20,199 nt of DNA from a virus: positions 1 through 20,199 of IMG/VR virus record IMGVR_UViG_3300028548_000520; one strand, given 5' to 3'. The position numbers and the translations under genes were made by a program. Shown one piece after another: positions 11,501 through 17,384 of this stretch (position 1 is the first letter of the stretch; every line of letters starts with the position of its first letter). The notes beneath the pieces were generated by a model that had not been told where the DNA came from, ran no database searches, and saw nothing but the letters and a program-made list of their open reading frames with translations.

Positions 11501-12239
11501 CATTGCAGGTTTTAATTCAGCAGAAAGAGATGCTATCACTCCTACAGTAGGGAATCGTTTACTTTTTGCACAGTCTAATAATCCTTTGGTAAGATCATTA
11601 GGGCAATTCTTGTCGTGGGCACAGGCTAAAACTTCACAAACAAATGCTTTAATTACTAGAATTGAAGATGGTGATGCTGCTTTAGCACTTAGAATGTTAG
11701 CTGCCTTATCTATTTATGGAGGTGTTAGAGAGCTACAGATAGCAATGAGTCCTTCAAAATATTATGATGAGGAAAAAAATGTTCCTGAACGAGGCTCGTT
11801 TAAATATATAACTGAAGCAATGCGGTTGTCAGGAAACATAATGCCTTTTCAACTAGACAAAGCACTTTCTTTGGTAACTGGTGCAGGTGCATCTGAAGGT
11901 CTTGGTGGAGCTATTCCGTCTTTAGGATTGGTTGAAGATTTTATAAAGTTTGTACCCAATACAGCAGCTAATGTATGGGTAGAAGGCGATGGACTAGGTG
12001 TAGTAGCAGATACAATGGACCTTGTGCCTTTTGGTAAAGATTTAAAAAATATTTTATCTGAAGACAAGTTAGGTATTATAAATATCGAAGACGCTCCCCG
12101 AGGAAGAAGGAAGCGTTCAAACAGAAGAGGGTTTGCAGAAGGACACGAGGTTACAGATGTTCCGTATGTAAAAGAAAATCCCGAAGAAAGAATTAATCCT
12201 AGAACAGGCGAGCCTTACACAGCTATTTATAAAAGATAA
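8595..12239 (+). CDS. Very large putative ejected internal virion protein
   Basis: 1214 residues, the longest gene here. The ATG follows the previous stop by three bases with no clear Shine-Dalgarno sequence, suggesting coupling to the gene before. The N-terminus has a duplicated Y-S-Y-L-F motif (residues 9-13 and 54-58) separated by a Glu-rich run. Hydrophobic or glycine-rich stretches lie near 183-225 and 403-437 (GGASGAIAYSYM and WTIIGGSAALGFW), either of which could insert in a membrane. Most of the remainder is helical. Residues 988-1056 (LLFAQSNNPLVRSLGQFLSW onward) are the kind of conserved C-terminal region I associate with large phage core proteins. The end is basic (RRKRSNRRG) and finishes with NPRTGEPYTAIYKR. 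By size, order and composition it resembles the large core protein that follows DNA into the host, as T7 gp16 does; no enzymatic motif was seen. Confidence 0.7.
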   Translation: MSVNYTDEYSYLFKDNEQEILTNNNLELTEEEEEQKRKEEEEEENKTQTYNDSYSYLFNEDNNESLQAFNMQASTDEKVDAEKEPSFARKFDYGLEQEQTILGNLAQSFVAGAKALTRSGLSFEKALRESERQRQEDIFEEYPEFKNRPEDAAVTTGRIAQALVDPIPWLVPWTKIAQVGRAATVTAGAGFAVGDVALREKVLYGRVDPSSVLMAGVFGAGATYGADVIARRFTNKNTIKEIDFVDETGTTKTLASKIKDEPEFTANAAEIDAVEEVGNARLKKEMNSILDDGPENSEFLLSATAKIKAYEELDTAAKITSKLKEFKNVGVNITRKELERQATVLKIEAKKAKLSISSQTQRLMGNIDDGVAKNLEDLETIGTKITLSDGFIRKFVYEATRPIFGGASGAIAYSYMGEEDDTALMWTIIGGSAALGFWQGRVQRSKFLTKPQKEVIKDVLYQEASLTRNTWTKINTAGSHAERLNAWGGSSAMVSKLMYKQQGASLTGRVNMPVESRSTDKKVKLFNFIHNKVLNDVPPNMREDLGKLRNGFVSLDELAKKYNASELEILKNSSVKIKEFTNSLGEAVSGVGIKYKELENYGLTQMWDWGKIGADSDKFSYLLKNAWAVQKYKLDPTDIKGIEASIKSGGKQFEDEVNQVAIGLSGQRATSVFDADGNFVLPLVKNYEKSRVITDQNSRKMLQEFIVNDPQQTLAHLVVQTVPSLEFARTWGANGELLRTVRRDIHNKYNAINKGRNVDKLKQKELQHINDSMNAFFGLYGNRLTNETGHVMMAGLTALGNSTMLTRVSVPSIGDLIQPLQNSGFMPVIKSYASAAKSIKLLGGKQDSFSVEGLGIAHLNVLDSELKAINFGLDPANKIGQKIGAWNEFFFKIVGLKKITELAKARAYDAGVYRAYAISKKVTSGKKISESLQDEINALSLSTEDMRKIASFKNTRLAYDNKETKKALHIAGFNSAERDAITPTVGNRLLFAQSNNPLVRSLGQFLSWAQAKTSQTNALITRIEDGDAALALRMLAALSIYGGVRELQIAMSPSKYYDEEKNVPERGSFKYITEAMRLSGNIMPFQLDKALSLVTGAGASEGLGGAIPSLGLVEDFIKFVPNTAANVWVEGDGLGVVADTMDLVPFGKDLKNILSEDKLGIINIEDAPRGRRKRSNRRGFAEGHEVTDVPYVKENPEERINPRTGEPYTAIYKR

Positions 12240-12697
12240 TGTACAATCACTTCCTAGAACACCTTGAACTTAGAGAAGGTAACGTAGAGTACGTTTATCT
12301 TGACAGTCTAGGCAAGCTTACATGTGGTGTAGGACATCTTTTAACTCAAGACGAATGTAGTTTATATTATATAGACCAAGTTATTGATAAAGAAATAAGA
12401 AATCAATGGTTAAAAGAAGACGCACAAAAAGCATGGGATGCTGCAGCACAACAAATTCAAGACCTAAGCATAGAGGATACAGGATTTATAATTGCACTAG
12501 GCTCAGTAAACTTTCAACTAGGCACACGATGGATGAATAAATTTCCGTCAGCTTACAAAGCCCTGTCTAGTAAAGACTACGATGAAGCAATTCGTCAAGT
12601 ATCTACAGGCTCTGGTAAAGACGGACAATCTAAATGGAAAGAACAAACACCAGTTAGAGTAGAAGATTTCGTAGGCGCTATTAAAAATTTAACTTGA
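12239..12697 (+). CDS. T4-type endolysin (muramidase, GH24)
   Basis: 152 residues. It cleaves the glycan chains of peptidoglycan at the end of infection. The catalytic triad is plain: Glu13 in LELREG, Asp22 in YLDSLGK and Thr28 in LTCGVGHLL. Spacing (9 and 6 residues) equals Glu11/Asp20/Thr26 of T4 lysozyme. VNFQLGTRW at about residue 99 and KWKEQTPVRVEDFV near the end match the conserved C-terminal lobe. Length is close to T4 lysozyme (164). There is no signal peptide or anchor at the N-terminus, so export through a holin is expected, and a holin-like gene lies 172 bases downstream. The ATG overlaps the stop of the preceding gene as TAATG. Confidence 0.93.
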   Translation: MYNHFLEHLELREGNVEYVYLDSLGKLTCGVGHLLTQDECSLYYIDQVIDKEIRNQWLKEDAQKAWDAAAQQIQDLSIEDTGFIIALGSVNFQLGTRWMNKFPSAYKALSSKDYDEAIRQVSTGSGKDGQSKWKEQTPVRVEDFVGAIKNLT

Positions 12698-12721: not shown

Positions 12722-12872
12722 GATATTATATCTAGAAGATCAATTAGAAGCATGTTACAGACAATACTGTTTACATCAAGTAAGACAAGACATGCCCTTT
12801 ATGACTTTAGATAATTTTAGAGATATGTTTGAAGATTTAATGGAAGTAATATATAAGGACGAAGAAGTATGA
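12720..12872 (+). CDS. 50-residue acidic phage protein, unknown function
   Basis: ATG at 12720 with GGGGAG five to ten bases upstream; it ends by a 4-base ATGA overlap with the holin-like gene. The sequence begins MILYLEDQLEACYRQYC and ends DLMEVIYKDEEV. It has two Cys (12 and 17), is helical and acidic, and has no membrane segment. I recall short proteins of this look (E-x-Q-L-E-A-C-Y-R, then F-R-D-[ML]-[FY]-E-x-L-M-E) near lysis genes in marine phages, without known function. The 4-base overlap suggests coupled translation with the holin; a regulatory or antiholin role is speculation. Confidence 0.7.
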   Translation: MILYLEDQLEACYRQYCLHQVRQDMPFMTLDNFRDMFEDLMEVIYKDEEV

Positions 12873-13348
12873 AACTAGGTGGAATATTAACAAGTGTAAT
12901 TGGGGCTGTTGCTCCTACGCTAGGTACTGCTTTAGGTGGACCAATGGGTGGAATGGCTGCGAAAATGATAGCCGAAGTGTTGGGTGTTCCTAACACACCA
13001 AAAGCTATAGAAAAAGCTATGGCTGAAGCAACCCCTGAACAAATGTTAGAGCTTAAAAAAACTGAACAAGCTTTTGAATTACAAATGAAAGAGCTTGAAG
13101 TAGATGTGTTTGCGTTAGAAACAGCAGACATACAAGATGCGAGAGGAAAGTTTAGTAAAGACTGGACTGCTCGTATTATAGGTGTTCTTGTTGTGGGTGG
13201 ATTTATGGGTTATATATTTTTAGTGACTCTTCAACCTCCAGAACAGAACTCAGAAGCATTAATCAATCTAGTACTAGGTTACTTAGGTGGTCTAGCTAGT
13301 GCAATTATAAGTTTTTATTTTGGGGCATCACACAAACAAGACTCATGA
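12869..13348 (+). CDS. Holin-like membrane protein
   Basis: 159 residues. A glycine/alanine-rich hydrophobic N-terminus (residues 1-39, with GTALGGPMGGMAAK) is followed by an amphipathic helical section. Two clear transmembrane helices lie at about 101-121 (IIGVLVVGGFMGYIFLVTL) and 131-152 (LINLVLGYLGGLASAIISFY), ending in the FGAS-basic tail common in phage holins. The overall pattern (LGG-rich start, ATPEQ-x-x-x-LKK, D-A-R before the membrane helices) is that of the three-helix holin family found in gene transfer agents and many proteobacterial phages. It would form the inner-membrane lesions that release the downstream-acting endolysin. It starts within the ATGA overlap with the 50-residue gene and ends in an ATGA overlap with the next gene. 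Confidence 0.75.
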   Translation: MKLGGILTSVIGAVAPTLGTALGGPMGGMAAKMIAEVLGVPNTPKAIEKAMAEATPEQMLELKKTEQAFELQMKELEVDVFALETADIQDARGKFSKDWTARIIGVLVVGGFMGYIFLVTLQPPEQNSEALINLVLGYLGGLASAIISFYFGASHKQDS

Positions 13349-13696: not shown

Positions 13697-14749
13697 ATGA
13701 AAAAATTATTAGGCACAATAGTTTTAGGTTTATTAAGCATGTCTGCATTTACTGTAGAACAAACAGGTACAGGGTGTGCTAATGGTACACAATATTGTGA
13801 GAACAATACGTTAGATACTACTAACGAAACAACTACAACTAATACCAATACAAATAATAATACCAATACGAATACCAATACAAACAATAATACAAACGTC
13901 AATACTAATACAAATAATAATACAAATGTAAACAGCAATACTAACGCTAATACAAATGTAAATAATAATACGAGTACTAATAGCAATACCAATGCTAATA
14001 CAAATGTAAACAGTAATACTTCGGATGCAACTTCTAACAATACAAACTCTAATACAAATGTTAATAGTTCTACCAGTACCAACAACTCGACAGTTAATCA
14101 AACTGTAAACAATACAAGTAGCAATACAAACAATAACAATTCCGTATCCTCAAATACAAACAGCAACACCAATACAAATAACTCTACCTCCGATTCCAAT
14201 GTCAAAAGTAATAACACGAATAGTAATACCAATAACAACAATTCTGTATCTGATAGTACTAATCGAAATATTAATGAGTCTAACTCTACCCAAACTGTAA
14301 ATCAAAACGTAACTACAAAAGCTCCTCCTGCTAGTGCTATTGCACCAAGCATCATGAGTTACTCGCAAGACCTTTGTACTGTTGGACGTTCAGGAGCTTA
14401 TCAAGGACAAGTCTTTGGTTTTTCTACAGGTGGTACAGTTATTGACCAGAACTGTGAGCGTTTAAAACTTTCCAAGTATTTATATGATACAGGCATGAAG
14501 GTTGCTAGTGTATCTATCTTATGTCAAGACTCCAGAGTTTTTCAAGCTATGGAAATGGCAGGAACTCCTTGTCCTTGGATGGGTAAAGTTGGTAAAGAAG
14601 CATCCTTAGGTTGGAAAGCTAACAAAGAAGAAAGACCTGACTTTGAAAAAGTTAAAAAGAAATATGTAAAGTCTTGTAAACGTACAAGAAATACAAAGGG
14701 TAAATTAAAATCAAAGAGTACATGTGTTAAAGAATTTATTAATAGCTAG
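13697..14749 (+). CDS. Secreted Asn/Thr-rich repeat protein with Cys-containing C-terminal domain
   Basis: 350 residues, with GGAG seven bases before the ATG. Residues 1-18 are a Sec-type signal peptide (MKKLLGTIVLGLLSMSAF), so the protein should leave the cytoplasm. Residues 36-207 are low complexity: Asn at nearly every second position alternating with Thr, Ser or Val (NTNVNSNTNANTNVNN). Residues 208-350 form a conserved-looking domain with six Cys (227, 253, 276, 292, 327, 343), including DLCTVGRSGAYQGQVFGFS and NCERLKLSKYLYDTGMKVAS, ending in a Lys-rich tail. I recall this C-terminal domain from uncharacterised marine phage proteins. The function is unknown. Its 3' end overlaps the next secreted protein by 26 bases. 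Confidence 0.8.
   Translation: MKKLLGTIVLGLLSMSAFTVEQTGTGCANGTQYCENNTLDTTNETTTTNTNTNNNTNTNTNTNNNTNVNTNTNNNTNVNSNTNANTNVNNNTSTNSNTNANTNVNSNTSDATSNNTNSNTNVNSSTSTNNSTVNQTVNNTSSNTNNNNSVSSNTNSNTNTNNSTSDSNVKSNNTNSNTNNNNSVSDSTNRNINESNSTQTVNQNVTTKAPPASAIAPSIMSYSQDLCTVGRSGAYQGQVFGFSTGGTVIDQNCERLKLSKYLYDTGMKVASVSILCQDSRVFQAMEMAGTPCPWMGKVGKEASLGWKANKEERPDFEKVKKKYVKSCKRTRNTKGKLKSKSTCVKEFINS
13802..14317 (+). repeat. AAT-ACN low-complexity coding repeat
   Basis: About 170 codons of imperfect AAT-ACA / AAT-ACC / AAT-AAT repeats encode the alternating Asn tract. Units of about 10-14 residues around NTNVN recur, for example near 13895, 13923, 13955 and 14003. The tract is poor in G and slippage-prone. Confidence 0.8.
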
Positions 14750-16928
14750 TCTTTTCTTCCTAGCGTCAACAGTCCAGTCTTCGTATGGCTATCAAGACAA
14801 TCAAAGTCTTATAGACTTAACAGGTGTATCAGGTACAACAAATCTCGGTGCTTCTGATGATGGAGTATCGGGTGCATTCAACCTAGACTTTACGTTTGAT
14901 TACTACGGGCAAGAGTTTACACAAGCAAGAGTAGCTACTAATGGTTGCTTACACTTTAAAACTTCAGGAGCTTACTGCAACGACTTTACTCCTGACCCTA
15001 TATCAGGACAACACACCTACACTATGTATCCTTTTTGGACAGACCTTATAAGGGATAATGGGTCTTCGGTACTTGCTAAAAGCTACTCAGACAAGACAGT
15101 CTTTGGGTGGTACGACATGAAAGAATATGGTCGTAACAATACCAACAACAGCTTTGAAGTTATCTTGTGGGGCAATGACACATTTGAATATCGGTACGGA
15201 GCGTTAGATATAGAAAAACATGATGTGCTAATAGGTGAGATAGGAAGCAGTACTTCAGAATCATATCAGTACTTTTTTCATGACCAATGTAGTACAGGAA
15301 CAACTAATTTATCTGGCTGTGTTAGTAGCACTTGGAACAACGCAGATATAAATACAACCCTAGAGAATGGTGGTTCTTTATTAGGTGTAGGAACAGGTAA
15401 CTCTATAGACTGTAGTGACCCACTTAATAATTCAAGTTGTTCAGGTTATGCTTCTGCATACTTGAGTCAAGAGTGTGGATTAACACAATTGCATAGCGAA
15501 GAATGTCCTAACTATTGGGATGCCTATGACGATTTACAATGCGATGAGAACCCACAGTATGCTCCGTTCTGTCCAAGTTACAGACACGAAGATAACATTG
15601 CATACTATAGTGAAGAAGAAGATTATGGTTATACCGAAGAAGACATGTGGTATGACGAAGAGTATGACGAGTGGTTAGACCCTAACGACCCATGCTATGA
15701 GAACAGGTGTGAAGGATTCACAGACGCAGATTGGTACGCACTTGATGCTGAACAGTTTGGTCAGGAGCAGGTAGACGAATGGTTCGGAACTGATATAGCT
15801 TTTGGGGATGATGGTATGGTAGATTTTGAATCTACACCTATGATTTCCTACGAAGACTTAGATGTCTTAATGGATGTTTGGGACACAGAACAAGAACATT
15901 ATCAGATGGCTACGTATGACATGCTACCTATGGATACAACTGTAATGGCACATGAATTAATAATAAGAGAGGAAATAGAAAATGAAATTGTATATGAAGA
16001 AAATGAAAGAGAAGTCTTTGAAACTATGGAAGAACTTGAAGAGTGGTTTGAAGAAGAAACGCTTGAAGCTGAAGAAAGTATTGAAGAAATACTGGCAGTT
16101 GTTAACGAAGAAACTGAAGAGTCTATTCGTGAAGAAACCCGTGAAGAGGAAGTACACGAAGAAAACGAAAGTGTAGTTGAAGAATTGTTTGCGGAGGAAG
16201 ATGAGAGTAGACCCGATGACGAGCGTAAAAGTTCTGTCCGAGTGTCTGCTTTAGACATTATAGCCGGTACAATTAGAACAGCTTCTAATAGTGTTAGTTC
16301 CTCTAGCTACACAAGTACTAGTTCAAATAGCTTAAGTTCCTCTACGGGCTCGTATGGAGCTTCTAGTGGTACTTCTGGGGGTGGTGTAAGTACTTCTAAT
16401 TCTCCCAGTATGTCTGACCAAATATCCTCTGCCAACATCCAGACTAATCAGGTTTTATCAATGAGTGTTGGAGGAAGTTCTTCTGTTGGAGGTTCATCCT
16501 CATTTAGTATTACACCGATGCCTACACTTGACGATTCTCCACAGGTAGTAATGGCAGATGTACAGGTTCAAGACATGCAAGGTGAGATTAATACAGCAGT
16601 TTCAGGAGTCATGACAGCCTCTGAAGCTGACCAAGTAGCTGATAAGATAATTGCTAACAATATCAAAGAGCAACAGGAAGAAGCTGAACAAGAACAGGAA
16701 GATACAGGTGAGTACGGAGATAGGTCAACGCTTGTTGCCTATATAGGATACGTTGCAGGGTTTAATAGCTATAGAGATGCTCAGATACCTCAGCAAGAAA
16801 CGTGGTATGAACCTCGTGCAATTTACGCAGGTGTGACTATCAATGATAACACACAGGCTTTTTACGGATTAGCAGGTGCTAGTCTTAATACGTTAGGTAG
16901 CATGATAAGTATGCAACCAAATCTGTAA
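14724..16928 (+). CDS. Secreted nidogen-like-domain protein with Cys-rich and Glu-rich regions
   Basis: 734 residues from a GTG start at 14724, the first codon that gives a full signal peptide (MLKNLLIASLFFLASTVQS, cleavage near residue 19-22). Residues about 45-190 resemble a nidogen-like (NIDO) domain: FNLDFTFDYYGQEFTQARVA, NGCLHF, YPFWTDL, VFGWYDM and NSFEVILWGNDTFEYRYG appear in the usual order. Residues 230-330 hold about ten Cys within an acidic, Tyr-rich stretch. Residues 410-500 are an almost pure Glu-rich helix. Residues 503-600 are Ser/Gly-rich after VSALDIIAGTIRTASNS. Residues 668-734 form a compact tail with YIGYVAGF and ETWYEPRAIY. NIDO domains occur in extracellular adhesive proteins, so a role outside the inner membrane is inferred. 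The 26-base overlap with the previous gene implies co-expression. Confidence 0.75.
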   Translation: MLKNLLIASLFFLASTVQSSYGYQDNQSLIDLTGVSGTTNLGASDDGVSGAFNLDFTFDYYGQEFTQARVATNGCLHFKTSGAYCNDFTPDPISGQHTYTMYPFWTDLIRDNGSSVLAKSYSDKTVFGWYDMKEYGRNNTNNSFEVILWGNDTFEYRYGALDIEKHDVLIGEIGSSTSESYQYFFHDQCSTGTTNLSGCVSSTWNNADINTTLENGGSLLGVGTGNSIDCSDPLNNSSCSGYASAYLSQECGLTQLHSEECPNYWDAYDDLQCDENPQYAPFCPSYRHEDNIAYYSEEEDYGYTEEDMWYDEEYDEWLDPNDPCYENRCEGFTDADWYALDAEQFGQEQVDEWFGTDIAFGDDGMVDFESTPMISYEDLDVLMDVWDTEQEHYQMATYDMLPMDTTVMAHELIIREEIENEIVYEENEREVFETMEELEEWFEEETLEAEESIEEILAVVNEETEESIREETREEEVHEENESVVEELFAEEDESRPDDERKSSVRVSALDIIAGTIRTASNSVSSSSYTSTSSNSLSSSTGSYGASSGTSGGGVSTSNSPSMSDQISSANIQTNQVLSMSVGGSSSVGGSSSFSITPMPTLDDSPQVVMADVQVQDMQGEINTAVSGVMTASEADQVADKIIANNIKEQQEEAEQEQEDTGEYGDRSTLVAYIGYVAGFNSYRDAQIPQQETWYEPRAIYAGVTINDNTQAFYGLAGASLNTLGSMISMQPNL

Positions 16929-17015: not shown

Positions 17016-17384
17016 ATGGAATGGTTTGAAAATAAAACAACACAGATAATAGCTTTGGTGGGTATCGTAGGTACGTTGGCAGGGTTTGGGTACACAGGTG
17101 CTACCTATGTGAACCGGTTAGAGAACCTAGAGGCACAAATTGGTGGGATAGGTGATACAGAGAATGCTCAACAGATTATAGAAGAAAGGTTTGTGGGTAT
17201 TGAAACTTCTGTAGAGTACATTAATAAAAGTATTGATGGTGGAATTAATCCTTCTCTAAATGTGATGGCTGAAAATGCTAATGGCATGGGGAAAGATATT
17301 GTAGCATTACAAAAAGAAATAGAGTACCTACAAGAAAGTATAGATACTCTTAAAGATGATAATAAAAATCCTTTATCTAATTAG
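17016..17384 (+). CDS. Membrane-anchored coiled-coil protein at the end of the plus-strand block
   Basis: 122 residues. I choose the ATG at 17016 (MEWFENK) over a TTG at 17004 because GGAG lies six bases before it. Residues 9-30 are a membrane helix (TQIIALVGIVGTLAGFGYTG). The remainder alternates coiled-coil stretches (YVNRLENLEAQIGG; IVALQKEIEYLQESIDTLKD) with a Gly/Asn-rich hinge. The layout fits a protein anchored in the inner membrane with its coil in the periplasm, as in inner-membrane spanins, but no Rz-specific motif is present and no outer-membrane lipoprotein partner is visible. It may belong functionally to the secreted cassette before it. Its 3' end overlaps the opposing 77-residue gene by 8 bases. 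Confidence 0.65.
   Translation: MEWFENKTTQIIALVGIVGTLAGFGYTGATYVNRLENLEAQIGGIGDTENAQQIIEERFVGIETSVEYINKSIDGGINPSLNVMAENANGMGKDIVALQKEIEYLQESIDTLKDDNKNPLSN

Follow-up and report, generated by a model that had tools for sequence, protein, structure and literature searches.

A modular phage protein with a divergent NIDO-like head and two constant partner genes in marine phages

Gene B and its neighbours A and C

The window analysed here is a 20,199-base virus record (IMG/VR record IMGVR_UViG_3300028548_000520) that carries on its plus strand an open reading frame (ORF) at 14724-16928, here called gene B, which begins with a GTG start, encodes 734 amino acids and overlaps the end of the preceding gene A by 26 nt (14724-14749). 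A sequence-only reading of this DNA had covered B alone, and its constant partners, gene A upstream and gene C downstream, were missed. The features of the three genes are given below; labels such as L003 and L191 denote loci that we collected for comparison with the window.

13697-14749, plus strand: gene A (phrog_20531), with a signal-peptide-like N-terminus, an Asn/Thr/Ser-rich repeat tract and a Cys-containing C-terminal domain
14360-14647, plus strand: conserved domain of A (C..CER..L..LCQD..CP); six cultured Pelagibacter phages have copies with 54-60% identity
14724-16928, plus strand: gene B, 734 amino acids (ORF list, pattern matches, alignment to relatives)
14724-14783, plus strand: predicted signal peptide of B, residues 1-20 (hydropathy)
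14784-15293, plus strand: head of B, a divergent NIDO-like all-beta domain, residues 21-190 (AlphaFold, RemA profile match)
15294-15623, plus strand: Cys-repeat part of B, residues 191-300, with units PL....C.GY..AY..QQC (invariant alignment columns; expanded in L191)
15624-15923, plus strand: acidic Tyr-rich part of B, residues 301-400 (composition, conservation)
15936-16238, plus strand: Glu-rich predicted helix or spacer of B, residues 405-505 (AlphaFold model, composition)
16266-16523, plus strand: Ser/Gly linker of B, residues 515-600 (composition)
16704-16925, plus strand: conserved C-terminal motif of B, WYxPxxIY...DN, residues 661-734 (common to B proteins with other heads)
17016-17384, plus strand: gene C, one membrane segment followed by a coiled coil (probable start ATG 17016, whereas the ORF list gives TTG 17004)
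17367-17381, plus strand: NPLSN tail at the C-terminus of C (count of NPL tails across loci)

The layout described in the sequence-only reading, from signal peptide and head through a Cys part, an acidic Tyr-rich part and a Glu tract to a Ser/Gly linker, is borne out by composition. Residues 1-20 are hydrophobic (by a hydropathy test, not SignalP) and precede the head (21-190), seven Cys lie in residues 191-300, Asp and Glu make up 33% and Tyr 10% of residues 286-400, Glu accounts for 40% of residues 405-505 and Ser plus Gly for 51% of residues 515-600, with the whole protein carrying a net charge of -114. Two further elements of that reading stand in part: the Glu-rich helix of about 90 residues is Glu-rich as described and is modelled as a helix (403-473) by AlphaFold at low confidence, and the compact C-terminal domain is conserved but is likewise modelled at low confidence. 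Fold matches of the full-length AlphaFold model, whose mean predicted local distance difference test score (pLDDT) is 51, were set aside as meaningless. A Plasmodium Cys domain, CPW_WPC, matched 29 of 42 members of the B family (best E 0.0033) and was discounted as a short Cys motif.

Gene B has many relatives in viral contigs

With the B sequence alone as query, viral contigs gave 101 matches, every one of which (101/101) encodes a relative; 80 of these 101 were kept, 52 of the 80 being complete, and 41 representative relatives align to the window B at 38-82% identity. When an alignment of B heads was used for the scan, at least 582 relatives were found among the 599 stretches listed. The window B has no match at E 0.01 among 50,697 phage records, scans of the protein against Pfam and PHROGs gave nothing significant, and no near DNA match was found for the whole window. 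The earlier description of the protein as unlike any phage family is therefore apt for named families only, its relatives in viral contigs numbering in the hundreds.

Median identity to the window is 72% in the head (residues 21-190), 64% in the Cys part and 74% in the acidic Tyr part, and is 43% in the Glu tract, the lowest of all segments except the signal peptide. Codon differences between the head and that of L003 are concentrated at third positions (18, 13 and 45 at positions 1, 2 and 3), and gene B is a real, conserved protein, not a chance ORF. The head and the Glu tract diverge in opposite ways in two close relatives: compared with L003, third positions are changed in 45 of 170 codons of the head and in 3 of 101 of the Glu tract, whereas compared with L009, 12 of 170 residues are changed in the head and 32 of 89 in the Glu tract. 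Such a pattern is what intragenic exchange or recombination would give.

The head of B is a divergent relative of NIDO domains

The head had been proposed to be a nidogen-like (NIDO) domain, and our results support this for a divergent NIDO-like domain and not for a clean member of the Pfam family. Pfam NIDO (PF06119; cut-off 25 bits) does not match the window B protein at E <= 1 or the isolated window head at E <= 10, and it matches only 10 of 52 isolated head domains of relatives (best E 5e-4). Nevertheless, the head resembles NIDO domains in being an all-beta domain of extracellular type and in the order YG..F....TNG..F ... PFWTD ... W ... NSFEV ... Y. The full-length B family profile matches one solved chain, 8gl6_D (named RemA), with E 3.9e-7, and for a head-only profile this chain is the sole solved-chain match at E <= 10, with E 1e-8 over chain residues 48-171. 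As a positive control we used 150 bacterial genomes, 4 of which hold proteins that pass the NIDO cut-off; two of these score 25.0 bits (L196) and 21.6 bits (L198) against the head profile, and the other two reach E 0.004-0.009 (small ORF set, filters off). A sequence relation of the head to accepted NIDO proteins was thus found through L196 and L198.

AlphaFold predicts the head (residues 19-190, from 52 sequences) to be all beta, with a pLDDT of 90.9 and a predicted template modelling score (pTM) of 0.90. Foldseek comparison of this model with the PDB gave no match at E <= 0.001, so that a known tail or baseplate fold in place of NIDO was not what emerged, and in VIA the best Z of the model was 4.5, within the range of common arrangements. 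Against BFVD the model matches four viral predicted proteins at E <= 0.001, none of which has a helpful function; the best (E 5.7e-11, 30% identity) is A0A6J5P7T5 from an uncultured phage. The only solved chain that the head profile matches lies in the N-terminal region of a Flavobacterium gliding adhesin of the RemA/RemZ kind, and 8gl6 is, we presume, the structure entry from the work on RemZ. If so, poor resolution outside the C-terminal domain of RemZ would explain why a fold match between the head and RemA is absent. A passage of PMC10994853 states that only that C-terminal domain is well resolved, and the same paper cites a work whose title describes RemA as a mobile cell surface lectin. 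RemA and RemZ are substrates of the type IX secretion system of Bacteroidota, a route that is not expected in the likely alphaproteobacterial host of B.

Gene B lies in a conserved three-gene cassette

To count the neighbours of B we used two sets of loci, which share some contigs. The first comprises the 72 of 80 loci matched by the head model, only these being counted, and the second comprises 72 new loci among the 80 listed in the head scan. Where the contig leaves room, gene A lies directly upstream of NIDO-type B in 48/48 loci of the first set and 64/64 of the second, and gene C lies downstream in 55/57 and 54/56, respectively. In four loci (L021, L060, L061 and L064) gene C is found on the opposite strand, convergent with B and still adjacent to it. 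Scanning viral contigs with the A domain gave at least 598 relatives among the 600 stretches listed; gene A itself matches phrog_20531, a family of unknown function, with E 3.4e-13.

The small protein C is marked by its C-terminal tail, since NPL falls within four residues of the end of the ORF after B in 94 of 104 loci, compared with 5 of 1,351 other small ORFs. Of the ten loci without a terminal NPL, C is encoded on the opposite strand in four, NPL stands further from the end in three, and three, including the phage HTVC115P, have none. Of 96 C proteins, 78 have one membrane segment, near the N-terminus. Outside the cassette the surrounding genes vary, one group of loci having lysozyme, nrdB and nrdA as in the window and another having holin-like and structural genes. 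The three genes make up a cassette that is conserved in marine phages with different neighbours. Scans of Pfam and PHROGs assign no function to A, B or C.

The A domain also occurs in 23 loci (L173-L195) from metagenome-assembled genomes and a single-cell genome of many phyla; most of these have the look of phage contigs that were binned with bacteria. A 216-amino-acid phrog_3704 protein labelled ferredoxin is encoded upstream of A in 62 of 169 loci (for example L118:3922-4569); where B is not of NIDO type, it is often found some 1.2 kb ahead of A.

The same cassette is present in cultured pelagiphages

The A domain is present in 11 of the 50,697 phage records, six of which are Pelagibacter phages. 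The A-B-C set is found in HTVC202P (gp24-26), HTVC033P (gp46-44), Mosig (00202-00200), Baldr (001/003/004), HTVC023P (gp45/46/48) and HTVC115P (gp54-52), and also in the fosmid phage MedDCM S28-C10. In all seven, the B-like protein has a signal peptide, a beta domain and a Glu-rich tract, and is followed by a small C-like protein. The same full set was not seen in Roseobacter phage CRP-810 or in ctXG6705, which hold the A domain; the comparison covered the A-domain records other than CRP-207 and a second record from Manatee Spring. The cultured pelagiphages share with the window the gene order, the A domain (at the identities listed above), a Glu-rich B with a signal peptide and a homologous C, the environmental C proteins aligning to those of the seven named phages with an hhalign probability of 98.3% (E 2e-14).

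What differs is the head, which in the cultured pelagiphages is carbohydrate-binding-like or of another kind and not NIDO-like. Matches of CBM_4_9 (PF02018; cut-off 25.9 bits) to B of HTVC202P and S28-C10 lie below the cut-off, at 15.7 and 16.8 bits, and the same Pfam scan gave no CBM_4_9 match to B of HTVC033P, Mosig or HTVC023P. Two B proteins of the cultured type, that of S28-C10 among them, were named carbohydrate binding by their depositors.

Two side observations concern these phages. The window encodes at 1767-2009 a small membrane coiled-coil protein with an IAKEYVTK stretch that it has in common with gp54 of CRP-810, the gene directly preceding gp53, that phage's A homologue. A 'toxin-activating lysine-acyltransferase' is annotated in HTVC103P and HTVC115P (L082:30003-30452 and L083:11394-11843), the HTVC115P copy lying among late-region genes.

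Head and spacer of B are exchanged

Sorting the heads of 139 B ORFs that lie behind A gave 62 that are NIDO-like, 42 of the cultured-group type and 35 that are neither, a tally that is no census of heads in that 80 of the loci were chosen for a NIDO-type B. The B of L183 has a different head and the same C-terminal motif (E 1.2e-8), and that of L191 (8405-10543) combines a NIDO-like head and the same C-terminus with Cys repeats (PL....C.GY..A) in a very long array; the L191 protein has no match among the phage records. An iterated profile built from bridging sequences reaches 126 of 136 B C-termini, S28-C10 being among the ten that are not reached. The same profile drew in 11 of 696 other ORFs, each 544-908 nt behind an A gene, and these are B genes with a small gene between A and B. 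Direct comparisons failed, both that of B C-termini by hhalign without bridges (probability 3.3%) and that of whole B families by profile (17 aligned columns); the homology of the C-termini of B proteins with different heads comes from an iterated bridging search, which could contain drift.

Of 133 B proteins, 103 contain an acidic stretch (80 residues, >=40% Asp plus Glu), as do 9 of 317 other long ORFs; all 9 of the latter are B genes missed by the rule used to assign B. In L129, L135, L145, L146 and L152 the spacer of B is instead rich in Pro, Val and Ile and low in acid, and the replacement of the acidic tract by such a tract points to a spacer role. The suggestion that the dense acidic region could bind divalent cations such as calcium is not supported: related B proteins have the Pro/Val/Ile-rich tract in its place, and a profile scan found no EF-hand or other cation-binding family among members of the B family. 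Head and spacer are thus exchanged while A, C and the C-terminal motif of B persist.

By hydropathy, an export-type N-terminal hydrophobic segment is present in 57 of 62 NIDO-type B proteins that are complete at the 5' end, and in 131 of 139 B ORFs overall, compared with 263 of 681 other ORFs. These counts support the earlier view that B is secreted, and B appears to be sent into the envelope of the infected bacterium.

The cassette lies near lysis genes in several phages

Two genes upstream of the cassette in the window bear on its setting:

12239-12697, plus strand: endolysin (Phage_lysozyme, PF00959, E 2.5e-6; phrog_7 endolysin)
12869-13348, plus strand: membrane protein (phrog_1544, function unknown) that resembles a holin only in topology, having two hydrophobic segments at its C-terminus

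Many loci have the holin-like phrog_1544 gene next to A-B-C, on one side or the other. The large terminase gene lies directly or nearly directly downstream of A-B-C in HTVC202P, Baldr and S28-C10, which puts the cassette at about the place of the lysis genes in T7. HTVC023P has an M15 peptidase gene directly after C, and HTVC033P has a lysozyme gene four genes before A. In all, the cassette is near an endolysin or terminase gene in five of the seven named phages that have the full set, and in several phages its location thus speaks for a part in lysis.

Discussion

B is probably one part of a three-part envelope device. The function that we infer for the cassette is that of a bridge: we put forward tentatively, and at rather less than an even chance, that B serves as the arm of a device made of three phage proteins, which spans the envelope at lysis in place of Rz/Rz1. 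Such a device would be built late in infection in the envelope of the infected cell, with A and B predicted to leave the cytoplasm by the Sec route and C predicted to be held in the inner membrane by its one segment, its coiled coil lying in the periplasm. The NPL tail of C may dock with the C-terminal motif of B or with the Cys domain of A. The C-terminal motif of B would lie at the inner-membrane end and the head at the far end, with the long spacer carrying the head across the periplasm to hold peptidoglycan, the outer membrane or their sugars. The most likely use of this arrangement would be to bridge the inner and outer membranes in the last step of lysis, replacing the Rz/Rz1 spanins. 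Somewhat more doubtful is the broader proposal that A-B-C is a new kind of machine by which phages lyse the cell or bridge its envelope, a membrane-anchored arm across the periplasm whose hold on the outer envelope comes from an exchangeable adhesin-like head and not from a lipid anchor, and that it is common to phages of podovirus and myovirus type that infect the most abundant marine bacteria.

In comparison with Rz/Rz1 spanins, C shares an N-terminal membrane segment followed by a coiled coil, whereas the cassette has no sequence relation to them, includes the extra protein A and an adhesin-like head, and has no visible lipoprotein partner. Rz (PF03245) had no match over its cut-off in the 10 records searched. 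An Rz-like family, phrog_739, gave a match to C (E 0.0055) that we rejected as a sign of spanin identity since phrog_739 also matches 11 of 14 control genomes.

Several observations weigh against the bridging arm. Inspection by eye of A and B in the window and in the seven named sets revealed no lipobox, and thus no outer-membrane anchor of the o-spanin kind, and one would not expect a spanin to carry a swappable head of sugar-binding type. No lysis gene adjoins the cassette in the stretch examined in HTVC115P and Mosig, and among 169 loci the two clusters of known endolysins occur close to A just 30 and 14 times, on contigs that are often cut. The charge of C leaves its topology uncertain: the N-terminal side of the membrane segment is more positive in 55 of 96 proteins, for which the charge rule favours N-in, less positive in 20 and equal in 21. 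Finally, spanins diverge fast, so the absence of PF03245 counts for little.

The main rival to the envelope-bridging arm is receptor capping or superinfection exclusion, which we consider unlikely and in which the exported head would bind a host glycan or receptor late in infection, blocking other phages and keeping progeny off the cell and its debris. Heads of adhesin or lectin type, with the match to the RemA chain noted above, would suit this role, and a passage of Mizuno et al. 2014 gives carbohydrate binding as the commonest identifiable annotation in the variable islands of marine phages (PMC3909814). However, relatives of S28-C10 B occur in only 4 of the 50,697 phage records, itself included, and the genes of Mizuno et al. 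may mostly be something else; their overlap with B is uncertain, S28-C10 B bearing that name and these 4 records being all. Moreover, none of A, B and C shows a way through the outer membrane, the conservation of the NIDO head (median identity 72%) is unlike that of a head chasing variable glycans, and the late position of the cassette is late for exclusion.

That B is instead a virion protein, either receptor-binding or tail-associated, is improbable. Tail proteins are assembled in the cytoplasm, and the export-type segment counted above in NIDO-type B proteins and in B ORFs at large speaks against such a protein, as do the constant pairing with the membrane protein C and the lack of any match to a tail or baseplate family in PHROGs or fold in the PDB search, although the head is adhesin-like, a tail-fibre gene precedes the cassette at some loci, and Mizuno et al. 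place carbohydrate-binding-domain proteins of marine phages under host recognition in the relevant passage (PMC3909814).

Slightly less probable again is a surface fibre or aggregation module akin in purpose to pelagiphage curli (type VIII secretion system), in which the tract of A would form fibres and B would adhere to neighbours: A does have an export-type start and repeats, and a passage of Wittmers et al. 2022 reports that curli clusters moved between pelagiphage families and proposes aggregation or defence (PMC9599517), but CsgG and CsgF have no Pfam match in A or its domain, or among A, B and C, the cassette is without a pore gene, and the repeat tract of A is short in cultured copies. 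The A-B-C cassette is not the curli system whose phage genes are described in passages of that paper and of the Melnitz paper (PMC9004378); the curli cluster is likewise a phage-encoded, exported multigene set common to phage families, with different genes.

The NIDO type of domain is known, and the cassette is new as far as our literature search showed: no description of it was found in literature on nidogen/NIDO domains, pelagiphage signal peptides, carbohydrate binding, spanins or HTVC115P, subscription journals being mostly outside the coverage. How pelagiphage progeny exit through the envelope, or how an occupied cell is marked, is not settled in the literature examined, and the cassette is present in hundreds of marine viral contigs as well as in cultured SAR11 phages. 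With its constant partners and exchangeable heads, this conserved set of export-type genes now brings that question within reach of tests in cultured phages, and it places in phages a domain of adhesion familiar from animals and gliding bacteria.

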